From positions 7,021,501 to 7,085,500 of the forward strand of contig NZ_CP063849.1 of the NCBI RefSeq assembly GCF_015277775.1: DNA of 64,000 nt, read 5' to 3'. Below are positions 7,565 to 16,537 of the stretch, one piece after another. The notes under the pieces are model-generated. The model was not told the origin of the DNA, ran no database searches, and saw only the letters and a program-made list of their open reading frames with translations. This stretch comes from Paludibaculum fermentans. GTDB taxonomy: Bacteria; Acidobacteriota; Terriglobia; Bryobacterales; Bryobacteraceae. The translations under genes and the position numbers were made by a program. Each line of letters starts with the position of its first letter. Position 1 is the stretch's first letter.

Positions 7565-9055
7565 ATGAAGGGCGGGGTCATCCATGTGCTTCTCATTGAG
7601 GACAACGCTCTCGATGCGCTCTTTGTGCGGGGATCTCTCACTGGGACATCGAACCCCAAGTTCGAGTTGCGGCGAGCAGACGGGCTCGCCACCGGCCTGA
7701 GCCAGCTGGCGGCAGGGGGAGTGGACGCTCTTCTACTGGATCTTTGCCTCGCCGACAGCGAGGGGCTCGAAACATTTCGAAAGGTGCAAGCCGCTGCCCC
7801 AGAGATCCCTGTGGTGGTGCTGAGCAGCGAGGACAACGGCGAAATGGCCGTGGCCGCAGTGGCTGACGGCGCGCAAGACTATCTGGTGAAGGGCCACTAC
7901 AGTACGGACCTGCTCACGCGGTCTCTTCGCTATGCTATCGAGCGGAAGCGGTCTCAACGGACGTTGCATGAGTTAGCGGAACGGCTCACGCATCACGTTG
8001 AAAATTCCCCGATGGCGGTCATCGAATGGGGGGCCAATCTGGACATCATTCGCTGGGCCGGCGAGGCCGAGCGGATGTTCGGTTGGACGCCAGAGGAGGT
8101 ACTGGGGAAACAGCGGGGCGCTTTCCCGTTGGTCTACGCCGAAGACGAGGCGTCTGTGGCGGAGGTTTTCGCGAGGCTGTACTCGGGCGGAAATCAGAAG
8201 TGCTTCTCGGCCAACCGCAACTGCCGCAAGGACGGATCGGTGATTCATTGCGAATGGTATAACTCTTCACTCATGGACGCCCAGGGCAACCTGCGTTCGA
8301 TCCTGTCCCTGGCATTGGATGTGACCGAGCGGAAGCATGCGGAAAGTGGGCTCAGCCTGGCCAACCAACAACTTCAGCGGCTATCCACCGACCTGCTGCG
8401 TTCCCAGGATCATGAAAGGAGGCGAATCGCTCGAGAGCTGCACGACAGCACGGCCCAGATTCTCGCCGCCCTGAGCATGAACCTAATCCGGTTGCAGAAG
8501 TCCGGGGGCGAACCACTGAAGAAACAGGCGTTGCTCGCGGAATCCATCGAGTTGGCCGCCTCCAGTTCCAGAGAGATCCGGACGCTAACTTATCTGCTGC
8601 ATCCGCCGCTTTTGGACGAGATTGGGCTGGTGAGTGCCCTGCAGGCGTATGCGGAGGGGTTCAACCAGAGAACCGGAATCGATATTGAACTGATCCTGCC
8701 GTCTGATTTCGGGCGGCTTCACAGCGATCTGGAATCGGCTCTTCTCCGCATTGTGCAGGAGGGATTGGCCAATGTCCACAGGCATTCGGGCAGTCCGGTG
8801 GCGACTATCCAGCTTGAGCGAGATCTGACAGAGGTCTGCCTGGTCCTGCAAGATCGTGGCTGCGGCCTGCCCTCGAGCCTGACTGCCCCGGACAGCGGAT
8901 TTGTGGGGCTGGGCGTCGGCATCCTGGGGATGCGCGAACGAGCGGAACAACTCGGCGGGCGGCTCGAAATCACCTCAGCCGGGAAGGGCACGAGAGTGAC
9001 CGTAAAGTTTCCTTTGGCTGTACAAAATGAGCAACTTGCGCATATTAGTGGTTGA
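7565..9055 (+). CDS. Receiver-PAS-histidine kinase (NarX/DegS type)
   Basis: 496 residues, no membrane segment, so a cytoplasmic sensor. Residues 5-125 form a receiver domain (acidic pair near E12/D13, phosphoacceptor D59 in LLLDL, lysine in YLVKG). Residues about 140-260 are a PAS domain (WAGEAERMFGWTPEEVLG) with a PAC-like end (ALDVTERK). Residues 270-350 are HisKA_3 with the phosphorylated H293 in RRIARELHDSTAQ. A HATPase follows with QEGLANVHRHS, a DRGCGL loop and GLGILGM-type G-box (GVGILGMRERAEQLGG). Its last 29 bases overlap the response-regulator gene, so the pair is translationally coupled. The N-terminal receiver suggests that it takes phosphate input from another kinase. The signal is unknown. 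Confidence 0.93.
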   Translation: MKGGVIHVLLIEDNALDALFVRGSLTGTSNPKFELRRADGLATGLSQLAAGGVDALLLDLCLADSEGLETFRKVQAAAPEIPVVVLSSEDNGEMAVAAVADGAQDYLVKGHYSTDLLTRSLRYAIERKRSQRTLHELAERLTHHVENSPMAVIEWGANLDIIRWAGEAERMFGWTPEEVLGKQRGAFPLVYAEDEASVAEVFARLYSGGNQKCFSANRNCRKDGSVIHCEWYNSSLMDAQGNLRSILSLALDVTERKHAESGLSLANQQLQRLSTDLLRSQDHERRRIARELHDSTAQILAALSMNLIRLQKSGGEPLKKQALLAESIELAASSSREIRTLTYLLHPPLLDEIGLVSALQAYAEGFNQRTGIDIELILPSDFGRLHSDLESALLRIVQEGLANVHRHSGSPVATIQLERDLTEVCLVLQDRGCGLPSSLTAPDSGFVGLGVGILGMRERAEQLGGRLEITSAGKGTRVTVKFPLAVQNEQLAHISG

Positions 9056-9680
9056 TGATCACCAGCTTGTGAGAAGGGGAGTCGTAGCCGCCATTCGGGA
9101 CGAGCGACCGGAGTGGGAGATCTGCGGGGAAGCCTCGACCGGACGCGAGGCGGTGGCCGCAGCGGAACGGCTTGACCCCGACATCATTGTGATGGACATC
9201 TCCATGCCGGACATGAACGGATTGGATGCGACGCGGCAGATCCTGAAGGAAGGCCCACGACGGCAAGTATTGATCCTCTCGATGCATGAATCCGAACAAA
9301 TCCTGCATGACGTGCTCGAGTCCGGAGCGCGAGGTTACATTCTCAAGAGCGACGCGGGCACAGACTTGCTGGGCGCCCTGGATGCACTACGAAACAACAA
9401 GACGTTCTTCACCTCCAAGCTAGGGGATGTACTGCTACGCGGGTACCTGAAAGGCAACGGAGGAGAGAAGGCCAGTCCCAGCCGCATGGTAAGCCCTCGT
9501 GAGCGAGAGATCATTCAATTGATCGCAGAAGGCAAAGCCAACAAAGAAGTGGCGACAACACTGAGTATCAGCGTAAAGACCGTTGAAACCCACCGGGCGC
9601 GAGCCATGGCCAAGCTGGATCTCCACTCTGTGAGCGACCTGGTCCGCTACGCGATTCGAAACGGCATTGTTGAGTGCTGA
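9027..9680 (+). CDS. NarL/FixJ-family response regulator
   Basis: 217 residues. Residues 4-120 are a receiver domain (VVDDH acidic cluster, phosphoacceptor D57 in IIVMDISMPDMNG, K105-region YILKSDAG). A linker precedes a LuxR-type helix-turn-helix, residues about 150-210 (VSPREREIIQLIAEGKANKE, then SISVKTVETHRARAM). The gene starts inside the kinase gene (29-base overlap) and is almost certainly its cognate regulator. It is followed by a minus-strand lipoprotein gene and then by the subunit-chaperone-usher-like locus; whether it controls that locus is inference from position only. Confidence 0.94.
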   Translation: MSNLRILVVDDHQLVRRGVVAAIRDERPEWEICGEASTGREAVAAAERLDPDIIVMDISMPDMNGLDATRQILKEGPRRQVLILSMHESEQILHDVLESGARGYILKSDAGTDLLGALDALRNNKTFFTSKLGDVLLRGYLKGNGGEKASPSRMVSPREREIIQLIAEGKANKEVATTLSISVKTVETHRARAMAKLDLHSVSDLVRYAIRNGIVEC

Positions 9681-9999: not shown

Positions 10000-10419
10000 T
10001 CAGTCGGGAATCACCAACAGAACCAGAGGCAGGCCAGAAATCGACTCCGGAATACGGATGGGGATGGTGGCCTCGTAGGGGAGACCGGGCATTCTGATGG
10101 TGTGTTCGCCAGCATTGACGACGACAATGTACTGCTTACTTCCGCTATTTGCTTTCAGAACACGGATGGCAATTGGTCCGGGTTTCACGGAGAGCCTGAG
10201 GCTGCCCCCTTCGGCCGTCCCTTGTCCAATGGTTAGGGATTGTTCCGAGGCCGCCTCGGCGTAATAGGACGCCTGGAGATTGCCGGAAATGGCGAGCCGG
10301 CCGGAGGCCTGTTGAGGGCATGCTGGTGAACAGCATCCGGCAATCAGCAAGGCTGCCAGAGACCTGAGGACGAAGGTTGCAATGTCCTCGTTGCTCGTTG
10401 CCGTCCTAATTGCCGCCAC
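10000..10419 (-). CDS. Putative lipoprotein with subunit-like segment
   Basis: 139 residues from a GTG at 10419, which has GGAGGG 4 bases upstream; a GTG at 10437 is an in-frame alternative. A hydrophobic stretch (FVLRSLAALL) ends in IAGC, a good lipobox, giving lipid attachment at that cysteine. The mature part begins SGRLAISGNLQASYYAE, which resembles the start of the two secreted subunits encoded on the other strand (SLALTGQVDGSI and SVAITGEVEGSI). The remainder is beta-rich (YIVVVNAGEHTIRMPGLPYEA). It could be an accessory or anchor for the adjacent assembly locus; the role is inferred only. Confidence 0.6.
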   Translation of the reverse strand: MAAIRTATSNEDIATFVLRSLAALLIAGCCSPACPQQASGRLAISGNLQASYYAEAASEQSLTIGQGTAEGGSLRLSVKPGPIAIRVLKANSGSKQYIVVVNAGEHTIRMPGLPYEATIPIRIPESISGLPLVLLVIPD

Positions 10420-10798
10420 AGTGCCCTCCGTTACCACGCAGTGTGCCTCAACACACTGCCATCAGCTCTCCCAGCCTATCAGGATCATGCCATGCCCTGG
10501 GATGTGGAAAGCCGGCATGGATAAGCATGATCGCCACCAAGTTCTTCCTCCACTCATCCGCCCGAGCGCTTTAAAGAGTTGGCCTAGCCGAGCTGCCATC
10601 GCGTGACAGGCTAAGCTGAACGACCTAGAGTTCCAAGGGGTGGACCCCACTCTTTGTAGAAGGCAGCCCTTCGGGCCAGATGCATATTGTCCCTCTAGAA
10701 GATCGTGGTTATCACTGATTGTAAGAAATACACAATCCTCCAACAATAGAAACATAGGCGCAATTGATTGCACCTAAATCGAAATTAGGAAAACAACA
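10420..10798. other. Divergent control region of the subunit locus
   Basis: About 380 bases between the minus-strand lipoprotein and the plus-strand major subunit. The last 120 bases are AT-rich and contain two inverted repeats, listed separately, and the ribosome site AGGAAA before the ATG at 10799. I see no gene here. Confidence 0.55.
10717..10771 (+). promoter_or_regulatory. Two inverted repeats upstream of the major subunit
   Basis: GATTGT-N9-ACAATC (10717-10737) and the near-continuous palindrome GCAAT-TG-ATTGC (10760-10771) lie 28-82 bases before the start codon at 10799. Their position fits operators; a NarL-type regulator gene is nearby but binding is not shown. Confidence 0.4.
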
Positions 10799-11341
10799 AT
10801 GAAAAAGACTTTAGCAATGGCGGCCACGATCGTGATGATGCTCACGGCCACTGCGGGCGCCCAGACCGCGAACACCGGCTCCCTGGCGCTGACCGGACAG
10901 GTTGATGGGTCCATCATCCTTTCGTTCCATCAGAACACCTCTGGTGGGTTTACCCTGACCTCCGGCGACGGCACGGCCGCCGCGGGCGCGAACCTCTCGA
11001 CTGTGTCCATGTACGGCACGGCCACCGGGATTGTTGCCGGCAGCAATTTTGTGAAGACCAACCAGGTTGACGGCTTCACGCTCAGCGGCCCAATGGATGT
11101 TCAGGTTGACAAGGCCAATATCACTTCGAGCGGCTATACCCTGTCGGCGCAGCTCACCAGTTCCGACAGCAGCGAGTGGAGCCTCGGCGGAGCTTCCCTG
11201 AACAGCACCAGCCCCGTGGTGGTCGTCAGCGAGGGTTCGTACGCCGCGAGGACTCCGCTGACTTTGTCCGTGAAATTTCCGACCAGCATGAACTCCGGCA
11301 GTGTCAGCAACACGATCAACTTTGTGGCCACTGCACAGTAA
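10799..11341 (+). CDS. Secreted subunit-like protein 1 (fimbrial type)
   Basis: 180 residues with a clear signal peptide (MKKTLAMAATIVMMLTATAGAQ). The mature protein is beta-rich, low in Cys and rich in Gly, Ser and Thr, starting SLALTGQVDGSIILSFHQN and ending VSNTINFVATAQ. The same opening and ending recur in the protein encoded at 16004-16537, so they are paralogues, and the ending recurs in the 11446 protein. A conserved C-terminal strand is what pilus subunits assembled by chaperone-usher systems display. A hairpin follows the stop, as often seen after a major subunit. I call it subunit-like; no named pilin family was recognised with certainty (spore-coat-U-like folds are the nearest idea). 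Confidence 0.7.
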   Translation: MKKTLAMAATIVMMLTATAGAQTANTGSLALTGQVDGSIILSFHQNTSGGFTLTSGDGTAAAGANLSTVSMYGTATGIVAGSNFVKTNQVDGFTLSGPMDVQVDKANITSSGYTLSAQLTSSDSSEWSLGGASLNSTSPVVVVSEGSYAARTPLTLSVKFPTSMNSGSVSNTINFVATAQ

Positions 11342-11365
11342 TGCGACGCAGGGACTGTACCCGCA

Positions 11366-11394
11366 GGCCCGATCGTCCTACTTGGGATCGGGCC
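11366..11394 (+). terminator. Hairpin after subunit 1
   Basis: A perfect 9-bp stem (GGCCCGATC / GATCGGGCC) with an 11-base loop lies 25 bases after the stop. There is no long T-tract, so it may be a partial terminator or an mRNA-stabilising structure that keeps the first gene of the operon more abundant than the rest. Confidence 0.5.
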
Positions 11395-11445
11395 TTGTGC
11401 GCTACCGGTTTGCTCTTCCAGTCCAGGCCAAGGCTGAACTAATCC

Positions 11446-11976
11446 ATGCACTCCCTTTTGCGGATCCCGGCGACACTAGCGCTGCTTGTGTTGCTTCCGT
11501 ATGCAGTTGCGGCCGAGCAGCGGCCCAGCACGCTGGCCCAGGCGATTGCGGCCGCCATCAACCGTGGAAGGCCGACGGTGACGATATTGGCCGCGGCATC
11601 CGGAGCATCGATGCAGGGGCTCGGCACGGCGAACCCTGCATTGTCGTTCGGCCGCACCTCCTACTATGCGGGGCGCGCCGCGCCAGGTGTATCCCAGCAA
11701 AGCAGCGGCGGCTCCATTGTTATGACAACGCAATTCGCGCTGAAAGTGGACTGCAGCGACCCGCAGTCGGCGCTGGTGGAAATTGAGATGACATTGAACT
11801 CCCAGGATGCTTCCTACACGGTGACCGTGGACGGCACTCCTTTGTCCACTGCGACGTCGGCGACCGTTCAGCGATGCGGTTCAGTGAGTGAACACCGAGT
11901 GGTGATTGAGGTACCAAGGACGAGGCCCGCGGGGCCGTTCGGGAGTACTGTTTCGTTTTCCGCGATTGCCAGATAG
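11446..11976 (+). CDS. Secreted subunit-like protein 2 (minor, predicted)
   Basis: 176 residues with a signal peptide (LLRIPATLALLVLLPYAVAAE). The mature protein is beta-rich with two cysteines (VDCSD and VQRCGS) that could form a disulfide. It ends FGSTVSFSAIAR, matching the ends of the other two subunit-like proteins (pattern S-T-[IV]-x-F-x-A-x-A). It sits between subunit 1 and the chaperone gene with only 20 bases before the latter, so it is probably co-transcribed. A tip or minor subunit is a reasonable guess; nothing identifies its ligand. Confidence 0.62.
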   Translation: MHSLLRIPATLALLVLLPYAVAAEQRPSTLAQAIAAAINRGRPTVTILAAASGASMQGLGTANPALSFGRTSYYAGRAAPGVSQQSSGGSIVMTTQFALKVDCSDPQSALVEIEMTLNSQDASYTVTVDGTPLSTATSATVQRCGSVSEHRVVIEVPRTRPAGPFGSTVSFSAIAR

Positions 11977-11996
11977 AGCTACACCGAGGTGTCCAG

Positions 11997-12821
11997 ATGA
12001 CCACGAGGCCGTTCCGATTCAGTGCCTTTTTCCAATGCCTGCTGCAGATTGCCGTTGCCGGGGTGCTCTACTCCCAGCCGGTTGGGGGTGACAAGCCAGA
12101 GGTTGCGCCGCAGCGGGCCACACTCGCGCTATCACCCGCCGTCTCCATGTTGCGGGTGAGGCCAGGCCAGAGTGTGACCCAAACCTTCACCCTTGCCAAT
12201 CAGTTACCAATCGAGATGCGCTTTGCCATTGAGACGCAGGACGTGGTTGTCCGAGACGGAAAGCGCACATTTGTCCCGGCGGGTCAGATTCCCCTGGGGA
12301 TCGCGTTCACCGCAATTGCCGCGCCTTCCTCAGTGGTGGTGCCGGCCGGGCAGACGGTGTCGGCGAGCGTGACGGTCACGGTTCCTCCCGAGACCGCCCA
12401 ACGTGCGGTAGTGGTGTTTTTTAAGGGGCAGATTGCTGCTCCAGACAAGGGTTCTGTCGGCTTCGGCGCATCGTTAGGTGCGCTGATCACCTTCAATATT
12501 TCCAATGATTCCAAGGTGTCGGCGAGCGCTTTGGCCGTTTCGCCGCAAACCAGCAGCGCCAACCTGGGGTTCTCGATGGCCCTGGTCAATAGCGGCGTCG
12601 AACCCGTGGTGCCCAAGGGCGTCATCGCGATTCTGGATGAGCAAGGGAAGCGCATAGCGAAGGCCACCTTCGAGCCACATCGTCTATTGCCGGGGGAGAG
12701 CGGCCAGTTCGCCACGTTATGCCCCGCGGTGCTGAAGCCGGGGCGCTACCGAACGCTATCGTCCTTTGAGTACGAAGGGAAAGTCCTGACCAATGCGGGG
12801 GAATTCACAGTTTCCGAGTAG
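11997..12821 (+). CDS. PapD-like periplasmic chaperone (predicted)
   Basis: 274 residues with an N-terminal signal (FFQCLLQIAVAGVLYSQ). Two Ig-like domains follow. The first (residues 40-150) has LALSPAVSMLRVRPGQSVTQ, FTLANQLPIEMRFAIE and VVVPAGQTVSASVTVTVPPE, the usual layout of the N-terminal domain of fimbrial chaperones and DUF916-like proteins. The second (residues 160-274) contains SANLGFSMALVNSGVEPVVP and GRYRTLSSFEYEGK. It sits after two subunit-like genes and overlaps the usher-like gene by 29 bases, the order expected in chaperone-usher operons. Family membership is by fold pattern, not by a diagnostic motif. Confidence 0.68.
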   Translation: MTTRPFRFSAFFQCLLQIAVAGVLYSQPVGGDKPEVAPQRATLALSPAVSMLRVRPGQSVTQTFTLANQLPIEMRFAIETQDVVVRDGKRTFVPAGQIPLGIAFTAIAAPSSVVVPAGQTVSASVTVTVPPETAQRAVVVFFKGQIAAPDKGSVGFGASLGALITFNISNDSKVSASALAVSPQTSSANLGFSMALVNSGVEPVVPKGVIAILDEQGKRIAKATFEPHRLLPGESGQFATLCPAVLKPGRYRTLSSFEYEGKVLTNAGEFTVSE

Positions 12822-15800
12822 ATGGGTGTCCCTTCTGTGGCTAGCCATAGGGTGTGTTGGGCTTGAAGCGCAAACATACAGGGTGGAGGCGCACAAGACC
12901 ATCACCATCAGCGTGGCCGGCGTGACTGCGGCATACTCCCTGGATTCGACATACGCCGAAGCCACCACGGAGAACGGCCTGGTCATCGTATCGGGAAGGA
13001 TTGCCGGAGCCACGCATGTGATGGTGGTAACGGCATCCGGCGCCCAGGCATTCGAAATCCTGGTGATCAATGCGCCCGCGAAGCCTAGAACAGATCCCCT
13101 GAACCCACTGAACATCAACTCAGGGATTGAGGATGGGTATTCGGAGTCGCGATACGCGTCATCGCCGAGCCAGTTTCAGAGCACGCTCGACCTCTCACGG
13201 CGCCAGGGTGACACTACGACTCACCTCCATTTGGTGGGAACCCGCCAACTGGGGTCGCTCTCGAGCGACCAGGACAGAACAGCACTCTCATCAGCCTCCT
13301 ACCAAATCTCGACGGCGCGCCGCGATGTCACACTCCTGGATCAATACGTGCAGGAATCACCCCTGGGCATCGCCGGCTCCATCGTGCGCGGAATACACAT
13401 TCGACAAGATGGATGGCTGCTGCACGCGGGCTATACGTCGGTAGCGTCCTTTGAAGGATTATTCCTTCCTACGCGCGCGGAGGGCGTGGTTGAGGTGGGC
13501 TACCGGAGGCCATTGACAGAACATTCGTCCCTCACCGCATCGTTCAACCACTTCAGCGTACCTTCCACAGATATGGTGGGCCGCACCGGCAGCGTAGGGG
13601 TGGCTACGTACGATTACAGTTCCGGGGAGACCCTGCGCGTGAGCGCGGATGTGGGGCTGAGCCGTGGCGTCGGGGCCTCCGCGCGGCTGGACTATCGCGG
13701 TGACCGGGATAGCGTCCGCGGCAGTTTTCGCTACGCGCCTTCGACCTTTGCGTCACTGGGAGCCAACAACATCAAGGGGTTCCATTCGGACCTTTCCTGG
13801 ACGCGTAAGCTCGTGGGTAAACTCTCAAGTGAAGTGACGCTTTACAGCAACCGCTTAGCGTTGCCCGGCCTGCAGCAAACTACCATGACGGCCTCCGCCA
13901 AATTGCAGTACCTGATAGGCGGCCATTGGTCGGTCTTTGGCGGTGCGACAGGCTCCACGTACAAAACCGCGATTCCTCCACGACCGCCGGTGAGCAATGT
14001 GAGTGCGCCAGCCGGGCTCAGCTTCAGCTCCCGTCATTTCGGGGCACAGGGGCAATACCAGTTCTCCGAGGTTTCCAAGCAGGATGCGGGGGGGCATCAG
14101 TTCCGCGCCTCGGTGCGCGGGGGCGCAGGCGCAATTTCAGTCTCCGCATTCGCCGAAAGGCAGACGCACGCCCCCACGCTCTCTTTTCTACTGGATCAGG
14201 CGCACGGTTTGCGACAGGCGATTGAATTGCTGGGCATACAGGCGACTACCATCGAACAGGTCGACAGCCTTCTCAGGGATAGCGCCTACCTGTTTGCCGC
14301 TGGTTACATTCAGGGCGCTACCGTCAATATCGCGCCCGTGCGAAGCCAGGTGGGTGGGACGCTGGCCTGGAACGGCCGCGGCCGCAAGCCTCAGGTGAGT
14401 TACAACTTCCTCTACAACGACAATCAAGATCTATTAGGCAGCACGAGGAGCACAATTCATTCGGTTGTGTGCACGCAGAGAATTGGCGCAGAGGAGCTTT
14501 CTGTCTCCTATTCCGCGGCTGGTATGAAGTTGCCCGGACTGACTCCGATTTACCGGCCGGTGTTCTCGGTAGCCTGGCGACACCCGCTGAATAACGTTCC
14601 TTCGTTCATAATTCCTGAGCACCACGGCTCGATCTCCGGCACGGTGTTTCGCGACGACAGCTCGAAGGGCGCCTACGAATCCGGGATGCAAGGCATAGCG
14701 GGTGTTCAGTTGGTGCTGGATGGTTCGCGGCGCACACGAACCGCTGCGGACGGATCATTCCGGTTCCTGCGAGTGCCGGTGGGCAAGCACAGTGTGGCCG
14801 TGTCCTACCGGACCGACCGGCCGACATTTTTCTCGACACAGTCGGATGTCGAGGTTGCTGAAAACGGGACGGTCAACTTCGGGATCGGATTCTCGCTTTC
14901 CGGCCTGATGGGCCGGGTCTCGAATGATGCCGGCGAAGGTGTGACGGGCGTAAACGTGGCGGTCCGGAGCCAGGGCGGGCAGTGGATGGCAACTACGAAC
15001 GGCGATGGCGGCTTCTTTGTGCGGCAGCTTTCCGAGGGTGTGTATGAGGTGGAAGTCGACGCGGACTCGATTCCGGCCGGCTATCTCACAGCGCAGTTGG
15101 AGGTCCAACGAGTTCAGGTCGGGCTCGCTGCGCCAGGCCGGGCGGAGTTCGCCGTGCGCGCGCTCCGATCGATTGGCGGGCGGGTGTTTGCCTTTGATAC
15201 AGCAGTTGCCAAGGCTCTTCCGGTTGCAGGCAAAGTGGTGACGCTGAAGGGGTCTGAGAAGACCAGCACGACGGATGCCGAGGGCCGGTATTTGTTCCGG
15301 GACTTGGCCGCCGGCTCATACACGGTGGCGGTCGAGGCAGGGGCACGAATGGTTAGCAGTACAGTGAAACTGCCGGCCTCCCCGATGACGCTCTCCAACA
15401 TCGATCTCCAGATCGTTGACGCCGCGCCGGGGCGAGTTGCCCCAACTCCAGCCTTGAAAGGTCCCGTCGAAGGCCCAATCCCAGCGAGTCCCTCACCGCG
15501 CGAGACGATATCCGCGACTCCCAAAACGGGCGCCGCGCAACCCGCAGCAAGCCAGCCGCCGCCAAGCGCCTCAGCGAAGCAGCATGATCGCCTGGGACGC
15601 CAGAAACTGGCATCCGGGCAATATCGGGAAGCGATTGCGGAACTAGGCGAAGCGATTCGGATGGAGCCGGGGTTTGCTCTTGCTTACAATGCCCGCGGCT
15701 TTGCCTGGTACCTACTGCACGACCTCAGCAGCGCCACCGCTGACCTAGACCGGGCGATTGCGCTCAACCCGAACTATGCGAATGCATATCGTAACCGGGC

Positions 15801-15912
15801 GGTTGTGCGAAGGGCCGCGGGGGACCTTCCAGGTGCTGAGGAGGATCGCCGCCGCGAGGCGATGCTCATGTCGGAAGGGTCTGATCTCGCGAGGAAGAAG
15901 AAAAAGAAGTGA
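12793..15912 (+). CDS. Usher-like outer-membrane protein with CpaC-type N-terminus and TPR tail
   Basis: 1039 residues. After a signal peptide (to about residue 26), residues 27-95 match the pilus-formation N-terminal domain of CpaC-type secretins (VEAHKTITISVAGV; GLVIVSGRIAGATHVMV). Residues about 110-620 are alternating beta strands typical of a large barrel (YTSVASFEGLF, LRVSADVGLSRGVGASARLDY). Residues 620-875 hold three carboxypeptidase-regulatory/SdrB-like Ig domains (SISGTVFRDDSSKG, LMGRVSNDAGEGV, GRVFAFDTAVAKA). A Pro/Ala linker follows, then three TPR units from about 935 (AIAELGEAIRMEPGFALAYN) and a Lys-rich end. It overlaps the chaperone gene by 29 bases. I infer an outer-membrane pore for the nearby subunits; TPRs on an usher are unusual. 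GTG at 12826 is an alternative start. Confidence 0.7.
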   Translation: MRGNSQFPSRWVSLLWLAIGCVGLEAQTYRVEAHKTITISVAGVTAAYSLDSTYAEATTENGLVIVSGRIAGATHVMVVTASGAQAFEILVINAPAKPRTDPLNPLNINSGIEDGYSESRYASSPSQFQSTLDLSRRQGDTTTHLHLVGTRQLGSLSSDQDRTALSSASYQISTARRDVTLLDQYVQESPLGIAGSIVRGIHIRQDGWLLHAGYTSVASFEGLFLPTRAEGVVEVGYRRPLTEHSSLTASFNHFSVPSTDMVGRTGSVGVATYDYSSGETLRVSADVGLSRGVGASARLDYRGDRDSVRGSFRYAPSTFASLGANNIKGFHSDLSWTRKLVGKLSSEVTLYSNRLALPGLQQTTMTASAKLQYLIGGHWSVFGGATGSTYKTAIPPRPPVSNVSAPAGLSFSSRHFGAQGQYQFSEVSKQDAGGHQFRASVRGGAGAISVSAFAERQTHAPTLSFLLDQAHGLRQAIELLGIQATTIEQVDSLLRDSAYLFAAGYIQGATVNIAPVRSQVGGTLAWNGRGRKPQVSYNFLYNDNQDLLGSTRSTIHSVVCTQRIGAEELSVSYSAAGMKLPGLTPIYRPVFSVAWRHPLNNVPSFIIPEHHGSISGTVFRDDSSKGAYESGMQGIAGVQLVLDGSRRTRTAADGSFRFLRVPVGKHSVAVSYRTDRPTFFSTQSDVEVAENGTVNFGIGFSLSGLMGRVSNDAGEGVTGVNVAVRSQGGQWMATTNGDGGFFVRQLSEGVYEVEVDADSIPAGYLTAQLEVQRVQVGLAAPGRAEFAVRALRSIGGRVFAFDTAVAKALPVAGKVVTLKGSEKTSTTDAEGRYLFRDLAAGSYTVAVEAGARMVSSTVKLPASPMTLSNIDLQIVDAAPGRVAPTPALKGPVEGPIPASPSPRETISATPKTGAAQPAASQPPPSASAKQHDRLGRQKLASGQYREAIAELGEAIRMEPGFALAYNARGFAWYLLHDLSSATADLDRAIALNPNYANAYRNRAVVRRAAGDLPGAEEDRRREAMLMSEGSDLARKKKKK

Positions 15913-16003
15913 AGACGCGGGCCGCGAGTTGCGGCTCAGTTTGTACGGCGAAGAAACGCGCAGCTCCGTGGCGGATACGGAGAATCGAAGTCAGGAGAGA
16001 ATC

Positions 16004-16537
16004 ATGACCAAAAGAAACCTGGTACTCATCGCGGTGTTCGCGTTGGGACTTGGAGCGGCGGCCGACGCGCAGCAGTCCAGCGGTGGGTCGGTTGCGATCA
16101 CCGGCGAGGTTGAGGGTTCCATCGCTTTGTATTTCTGGCAGGACCCAGCAGGGTATGCACTGAACGAAGGCGGGGCCAGCGCACTGGTCGAGATTGGCGA
16201 TGTATCGGCCTATGGAACTCCCAACGGCCTGCTGGCCAACAGGTTCACCAAAGGGATTCAGAGTGATGGTTTCTATCTAAGCACGCCATTTCTAGTGCAA
16301 GTTTTGCGCGCCAACCTTCCATCCAGCACCGGGTACACACTGACCGCCCAAGTGGGTGATAACGACGACACAATGTGGTTGATTGATGGCAACCTCCTCA
16401 GTACAACTCCGGTTTTGATTTCTGCCACTGAATCCTACACAACCAAACGCCAGCACGTTTTGATGGCGAAGTTTCCATTCACAAAGGCCGCCGGGGGGCT
16501 GAGTGATACGATCACGTTTACAGCCACAGCGAACTGA
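16004..16537 (+). CDS. Secreted subunit-like protein 3, paralogue of subunit 1
   Basis: 177 residues. ATG at 16004, preceded by AGGAGAG at 5-base spacing, which rules out the longer upstream frame. Signal peptide MTKRNLVLIAVFALGLGAAADAQ. The mature part begins SVAITGEVEGSIALYFWQD and ends LSDTITFTATAN, aligning along its length with the protein at 10799 (shared segments include the YG-T-x-G-L/I turn, a DGF-x-LS motif, SGYTL/TGYTL-x-AQ and a final SxTIxF strand). Its position after the usher-like gene suggests a second structural or terminating subunit. Confidence 0.7.
   Translation: MTKRNLVLIAVFALGLGAAADAQQSSGGSVAITGEVEGSIALYFWQDPAGYALNEGGASALVEIGDVSAYGTPNGLLANRFTKGIQSDGFYLSTPFLVQVLRANLPSSTGYTLTAQVGDNDDTMWLIDGNLLSTTPVLISATESYTTKRQHVLMAKFPFTKAAGGLSDTITFTATAN

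Follow-up and report, generated by a model that had tools for sequence, protein, structure and literature searches.

A probable chaperone-usher-type locus with a divergent, apparently plug-less usher-like barrel in Paludibaculum fermentans

We analyzed a 64,000-nucleotide stretch (the window) of the 9.53 Mb genome of Paludibaculum fermentans (contig NZ_CP063849.1, positions 7,021,501 to 7,085,500), in which three small secreted proteins (subunits A, B and C) are encoded around a two-Ig chaperone-like protein (P0006) and a 1039-residue barrel protein (P0007). The locus probably encodes a pathway of chaperone-usher type that builds a linear surface fibre; its usher-like platform is divergent, apparently has no plug and does not belong to the Usher family PF00577. 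The company of the genes, the homology of the chaperone, the pilin-like fold of subunit A, the strand patterns and a barrel prediction of moderate quality were all computed directly. A preliminary description of the region had proposed such a locus, and most of its individual claims were borne out, as indicated below.

Genes for subunits, chaperone and candidate platform lie in one cluster, and the cluster recurs. A search of genome contigs with the barrel as query gave no match, and the chaperone alignment found 14 named loci, the nearest in Bryobacterales-type Acidobacteriota metagenome-assembled genomes (MAGs) at 51-60% chaperone identity. Twelve of the 14 have a large barrel behind the chaperone; the other two, L101 and L108, stop at a contig edge. 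The contigs L105 (labelled Ramlibacter) and L107 (labelled Moraxellaceae) carry acidobacterial-type loci and are probably misbinned MAG contigs. P0006 itself gave 10 matches in 297 phylum genomes, including its own, and a profile of seven family members (A1) matched 50 of 396 genomes of the phylum and 22 of 150 of the family, the own genome included. At least two of the 50 genome matches (the second hit in G029, and G098) are canonical chaperones linked to an usher; PF00577 matched 10 of the 396 drawn phylum genomes. The distribution is patchy: of the other same-genus genomes listed in the family set, G520 carries a different subtype of the locus, and no relative was seen in G441, G493 or G538.

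In the fetched loci, 52 of 55 chaperones were accompanied by a same-strand open reading frame (ORF) of at least 450 aa whose start lay -250 to 2500 bases away. At least one small secreted-looking neighbor with a strand-like end (loose pattern) accompanied 49 of the 55. After five repeats and three false neighbors had been removed, 44 of 50 distinct chaperones preceded a barrel, a biased rate, as the neighborhoods covered 28 of 52 A1 phylum places and 10 of 22 family genomes, mostly the best-scoring ones. For this count L019 and L109, L020 and L110, L087 and L097, and L088 and L099 were each taken once as the same contigs, the two L088 chaperones shared one barrel, and L026 was excluded. The six misses were L101, L108, L068 (no large ORF behind the chaperone), L070 and both L073 chaperones; the large neighbors in L070 and L073 were rejected as barrels because they are beta-helix/NosD proteins. 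Relatives of these genes therefore mostly occur together; their occurrence without each other had been named as a point against the initial interpretation. Chaperone and barrel distances over the 44 loci were correlated (r = 0.927, reached by 0 of 2000 permutations), which we take as joint inheritance and not contact, because shared descent alone yields such a correlation. Separately, in L088/L099 two chaperone genes stand in tandem with an extra subunit-like ORF of the same ending between them.

Profile comparison shows homology between the chaperone family and the chaperones of archaic chaperone-usher pathways, in keeping with the original view of P0006 as chaperone-like. The reference was three Acidobacteriota chaperones encoded beside PF00577 ushers, from 3 of the 10 usher genomes, namely those on both hit lists. 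Using hhalign, 33 family members matched them at E 1.2e-21 and the window's own chaperone clade alone at E 3.2e-6; the controls were K-12 versus archaic chaperones (E 2.7e-6) and, as a negative, the clade versus subunits (0.07). The 33-row profile matched K-12 FimC/SfmC/EcpB at E 3.7e-6, and A1, built without the three usher-linked chaperones, scored them at E 2.6e-14, 2.7e-14 and 9e-7 among the ORFs of their regions and two of them at genome scale at E 1.0e-11 and 1.5e-11. Pfam (E<=0.01) found PapD_N in 5, WxLIP_PGBD in 6 and fn3_5 in 14 of the 33 members, and a PapD-like two-domain periplasmic chaperone is recognizable at the level of the family. Among PDB sequences the profile matched EfmWxLIP1 best (1.9e-6), then five sialidase chains (~0.001) and EcpB (0.0087). 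The family is also a sequence relative of Gram-positive WxL-interacting proteins.

Candidate donor-strand residues, which the preliminary description had asked for in the chaperone, were found in its own clade. In the putative G1 segment of P0006, positions 154, 156, 158 and 160 are hydrophobic in 89-100% of the 12 close rows and positions 155, 157, 159 and 161 in 0-8%, the alternation that a donor strand would have. R136, R229 and Y251 are invariant in 12/12 close rows and are candidate carboxylate anchors. In the part of PMC4654587 consulted, the archaic chaperone anchor comprises Arg89 (domain 1 strand F), Tyr196 (domain 2 strand F) and Arg174, to which R136/R229/Y251 are likened by sequence place only (as R89/R174/Y196); the Arg of GEYR-type relatives aligns at least two columns off R136.

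The three small secreted proteins had been described as having a common C-terminal strand. The ending ..T[IV].F.A.A., a pattern derived from these same three endings, terminates 3 of 190 window ORFs (>=100 aa) and matches at 0 of 40,737 internal positions. Subunits A and C are paralogous (42% identity, E 2.6e-35), B is much more diverged, and relatives of B sit directly upstream of the chaperone. An AlphaFold2 (AF2) model of subunit A from 17 sequences (predicted local distance difference test, pLDDT, 83.8; predicted template modelling score, pTM, 0.77) suggests the pilin-like fold that had been proposed. The top 12 rows of its Foldseek search of the PDB (best 50 of 698 matches) were chaperone-usher pilins, pilin domains and tip adhesins, among them CfaB, type 1 pilus subunits, CupB6 and PapG. 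The fit was loose (TMq 0.35-0.47 across these rows) and the rank order striking. The likeness to archaic subunits was weak (E 3.2e-4 over 46 columns; Fim versus archaic subunits, E 0.0037), and the subunit profile matched no chaperone-usher pilin among PDB sequences.

The mature N-terminus of subunit A (GSLALTGQV in the window) precedes the first strand, with residues 2-5 and 7-11 at pLDDT <50. Over 17 rows of this extension, positions 9, 11 and 15 are large hydrophobic residues in 88-94% and positions 8, 10, 12 and 14 in 0%, while position 13 is Gly in 7. This alternation matches the pattern expected for a donor-strand extension and is in line with the donor-strand-like patterns first suspected. 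It also bears on whether the chaperone and barrel might export single surface or periplasmic Ig-like proteins, such as adhesins or matrix, in place of a polymer. In some relatives one candidate subunit only was found, and among PDB sequences the chaperone profile matched a Gram-positive WxLIP best, both of which would suit export of single proteins. The presence of several paralogous subunits, A and C in the window and four in L101, with alternating extensions suggests head-to-tail linkage instead, and we regard single-protein export as improbable.

Structure prediction of the 12793-15912 product (P0007 residues 28-880, 11 sequences; pLDDT 76.7, pTM 0.48) gave an N-terminal beta domain, a barrel of ~26 strands with a low-confidence helical insert, and three better-predicted C-terminal sandwiches. 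In Foldseek, FimD/PapC occupied rows 1-9 as well as 12-14, with a best E of 9e-15; rows 10-11 were one other protein whose match covered about half of the length, and from row 15 on there were LptD and TonB receptors. The isolated FimD translocation domain ranked at row 28 (target TM 0.44), and the common C-terminal sandwiches may have boosted the ranking of ushers. Pfam assigned three stretches each of CarboxypepD_reg and SdrD_B plus TPR to P0007, in accordance with the three SdrB-like domains and TPR tail initially described. A CpaC-type N-terminal domain had also been claimed; its family, PF13629, had no match in P0007 at E<=1 and was found in 4 of 51 proteins.

Those 51 proteins were P0007 and 50 putative relatives (two of which, from L070 and L073, are the beta-helix proteins); at E<=1e-3 they matched CarboxypepD_reg (48), SdrD_B (46), SPOR (6), PF13629 (4) and CooC_C (1). 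PF00577 was absent from P0007 and at this threshold from all 51, with 0 matches in the own genome, and the barrel profile matched no usher among PDB sequences, its good match coming from the transthyretin-like tail only. The barrel is thus not a classical usher, as had been anticipated. A TonB receptor and a secretin were rejected, as P0007 had no match at E<=1 to TonB plug/barrel or secretin domains, either of which would have spoken against the initial interpretation. An usher plug, whose absence had likewise been named as a point against it, was not recognizable in P0007 in the model or by profile comparison.

The SPOR tails in 6 of the 51 proteins suggest to us a periplasmic location of the C-terminal domains, as in ushers. 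A surface adhesin was rejected on this evidence. In the broader version of that idea the barrel would serve as an adhesin or porin at the surface, with stalks like those of SdrD, and the neighboring genes would be accessory; SdrD_B-type domains do match staphylococcal adhesins too. In addition to the periplasmic C-terminus implied by the SPOR tails, the barrel stays with the chaperone and their genes overlap by 29 bases, and we judge an adhesin or porin very improbable.

Barrel-only profiles place the window's clade with a second Acidobacteriota clade (E 6e-7) and with L021 (E 1.2e-5), and the second clade with the g114 clade (E 3e-18; window versus g114 not significant, 0.35); we refer to these four as clan A. 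Profile comparison of clan A barrels with FimD, EcpC, LptD and BtuB gave nothing. Against a two-sequence profile of archaic ushers, the window's clade had a probability of 0.5 and merged clan A of 2.5 (E 0.018), whereas the positive control, archaic versus Fim ushers, gave E 2.3e-10. The core of a second group, clan B, consists of seven barrels, each beside a DUF4402 gene or genes: L074 and L077, which were found by the chaperone profile, and five relatives on plasmids; five further Acidobacteriota barrels bring clan B to 12. The seven core members matched archaic ushers over ~150 columns (E 6.6e-7; leave-one-out 5e-9 to 7e-6) and the 12 at E 3.6e-9; the further barrels tested apart (L066/L067, L069/L075 and L071) were not significant, nor was clan B against Fim ushers (probability 2.1). 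We take the matching segment to be the place of the usher plug. No homology was detectable between clan A and clan B barrels (probability 16.5, E 0.0015, not collinear), and the two clans are alike in their family of chaperones and in the type of their C-terminal domains.

Seven plasmids carried both barrel and chaperone. The five examined (L114-L118), from Polaromonas (two), Sphingopyxis, Novosphingobium and Pseudoalteromonas, each had one or two DUF4402 genes, a gene in the chaperone position (four named chaperone, one hypothetical) and a large barrel. Such DUF4402-chaperone-barrel operons thus occur on plasmids of alpha-, beta- and gammaproteobacteria under generic names only, and three of the five plasmids were typed as conjugative.

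The clan comparison is central to another explanation, that the barrel is an archaic usher so diverged that its plug and N-terminal domain can no longer be recognized, which would make the locus a distant archaic chaperone-usher operon. Clan B, with the same chaperone family and similar C-terminal domains, keeps a segment matching archaic ushers, as such drift would predict. The window's clan A shows no such segment by the values given above, the P0007 model has no insert of plug size, and clans A and B do not match significantly; we consider a drifted archaic usher rather unlikely. There is about an even chance that a further chaperone-usher class exists across Acidobacteriota, in which the plugged usher has been replaced by, or rebuilt as, a plug-less ~26-strand barrel with either the conserved helical insert or the periplasmic domains as its gate. 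Clan B, linked to DUF4402 and found in both Acidobacteriota and Proteobacteria, would then be an intermediate class that keeps the usher plug.

Under the chaperone-usher-type interpretation, Sec would export subunits A, B and C as pilin-fold domains, and the two-Ig protein would hold each of them by lending its G1 strand and binding the C-terminal carboxylate of the subunit. The barrel would receive the chaperone-subunit complexes, help the next subunit's N-terminal extension to take the place of the chaperone strand, and thread the fibre outward, with the transthyretin-like domains acting in the periplasm like usher C-terminal domains. The strand exchange, the pore function, the fibre and its surface location are what we infer.

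Several results weigh against this interpretation. The barrel model is of moderate quality at the pTM given, its Foldseek rows 1-9 have TM-scores of just 0.23-0.36, it has no plug-sized beta insert (the largest gap within the barrel is 49 residues, helical and of low confidence), and the window's barrel clade shows no sequence homology to ushers (hhalign probability <=1.2). Just 2 of the 698 Foldseek matches of subunit A reach E<=0.001, and its sequence comparison with Fim pilins was not significant (probability 24.7, 23 columns). P0006 itself has no PapD_N match, and its clade alone compared with K-12 chaperones gave E 0.21. The genomes of the usher-linked chaperones were preselected; 7 of the 10 usher genomes are absent from the A1 chaperone matches, and the third usher-linked chaperone (G001) is absent from those at genome scale (E<=1e-4). 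In the 21 distant chaperone rows the G1 alternation is blurred, R occupies position 136 in 5 rows and position 229 in 1, and Y251 is kept in 13 of 19.

The features of the locus are collected in Table 1. Intergenic spacings are 104 bases (A-B), 20 (B-chaperone), -29 (chaperone-barrel, an overlap the preliminary description had pointed out) and 91 (barrel-C). For subunit C we take the ATG at 16004 as the start rather than position 15758, which gives 177 aa and a start resembling a signal peptide by eye. A, B, C and P0006 had no Pfam/NCBIfam match above cut-off. The inverted repeat between A and B is possibly an attenuator or RNA stabilizer, at a place where a major-pilin operon might have a hairpin; overall, the 111-nt A-B region shows no unusual degree of structure (z -0.53). 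Pfam confirmed that a two-component pair precedes the locus, its last gene ending 1118 bp before A. In g114 genomes (e.g., L022 and L025) a response regulator, NtrC-like by eye, lies upstream of the locus and four small secreted proteins surround the chaperone. The opposite-strand gene had been described as a lipoprotein with a subunit-like segment; a lipobox-like LIAGC is present, and the likeness of its product to subunit A is weak (21% identity, E 4.5e-4 in a two-sequence BLAST).

Table 1. Features of the locus, in positions of the window.
Feature	Position	Strand	Basis	Remark
Histidine kinase, REC-PAS-HisKA_3	7565..9055	+	Pfam	possible regulator, putative link
NarL/LuxR-type response regulator	9027..9680	+	Pfam	possible regulator, putative link
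Small putative lipoprotein	10000..10437	-	lipobox-like LIAGC by eye	weakly subunit-like, membership uncertain
Subunit A, 180 aa	10799..11341	+	signal peptide ~1-20 by eye; AF2, Foldseek	pilin-like, candidate major subunit
Subunit A N-terminal extension	10877..10903	+	alignment, 17 rows	alternating hydrophobic, donor-strand-like
Perfect 9-bp inverted repeat	11366..11394	+		between A and B, without T-run
Subunit B, 176 aa	11446..11976	+	alignment, neighborhoods	diverged second subunit, two cysteines
P0006, 274 aa	11997..12821	+	profile comparison, alignment	two-Ig periplasmic chaperone-like protein
P0007, 1039 aa	12793..15912	+	AF2, Foldseek, Pfam	usher-like barrel, outer-membrane assembly-platform candidate
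P0007 N-terminal beta domain	12874..13068	+	AF2 model, Pfam	PF13629-like in some relatives
Barrel domain, P0007 112-599	13126..14589	+	DSSP on model	~26 strands
Helical insert, P0007 463-511	14179..14325	+	model (low pLDDT)	between barrel strands 21 and 22; conserved in window's clade
Three transthyretin-like domains (CarboxypepD_reg/SdrD_B)	14623..15393	+	Pfam, model	usher C-terminal-domain position
TPR tail	15586..15840	+	Pfam	some relatives have SPOR or no tail
Subunit C	16004..16537	+	sequence comparison	A paralogue, downstream of barrel

Chaperone-usher classes are defined by their usher, and the barrel here is a member of another protein family, as yet without a name, which related bacteria also have. 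If chaperone and pilins followed the known logic on a different platform, such a class would show which usher parts are indispensable (plug, N- and C-terminal domains). It would also give meaning to proteins named just "molecular chaperone", "DUF4402" or "carboxypeptidase regulatory-like", and would provide a candidate adhesion fibre for Acidobacteriota, which are a major phylum in soil. No description of such a locus was found by title or start of abstract among the matches listed, subscription papers and preprints being outside the scope, and the literature searched contained no mention of DUF4402. The portions consulted of PMC4654587 and PMC9452303 report that several phyla have archaic systems, the word Acidobacteria occurring 0 times in the main texts, and the survey in PMC4793230, in the part consulted, omits the chaperone-usher pathway.

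Among known systems, the Gram-positive WxL/WxLIP clusters resemble the locus in the EfmWxLIP1 match of the chaperone profile. To our knowledge these clusters have no outer membrane or barrel. The three window subunits, unlike theirs, have no WxL Pfam match at E<=1; of 17 subunit A rows, 8 contain the letters W-x-L and 16 a W. The available part of PMC10599100 predicts that a WxLIP strand completes the WxL sandwich, and the term chaperone is absent from it. WxL and WxLIP may be related to chaperone-subunit pairs as their counterpart at the cell wall. The classical type 1 pilus (Fim) shares the operon logic, and FimD ranked first for the barrel model, but no sequence homology to it was found for the window barrel or subunits. 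With the alternative (alpha) pathway (CFA/I, ECP) the locus has in common CfaB as the top Foldseek match of subunit A, the weak chaperone match to EcpB and the CooC_C domain in one of 51 proteins (E 8e-4), whereas its barrel has no detectable homology to EcpC. The DUF4402-chaperone-"carboxypeptidase regulatory-like" operons, e.g., on proteobacterial plasmids, have the same three-part layout and C-terminal domain type; their clan B core barrels match archaic ushers and lack detectable homology to the window barrel. Compared with the archaic (sigma) pathway, such as Csu, the window lacks a PF00577 usher or recognizable plug and has another N-terminal domain and transthyretin-like C-terminal domains, yet the two are alike in a homologous chaperone family, in similar anchor residues in the window's clade, in the order subunits-chaperone-platform-subunit, and in the G-[TS]-Y-type subunit ends found in other clades.

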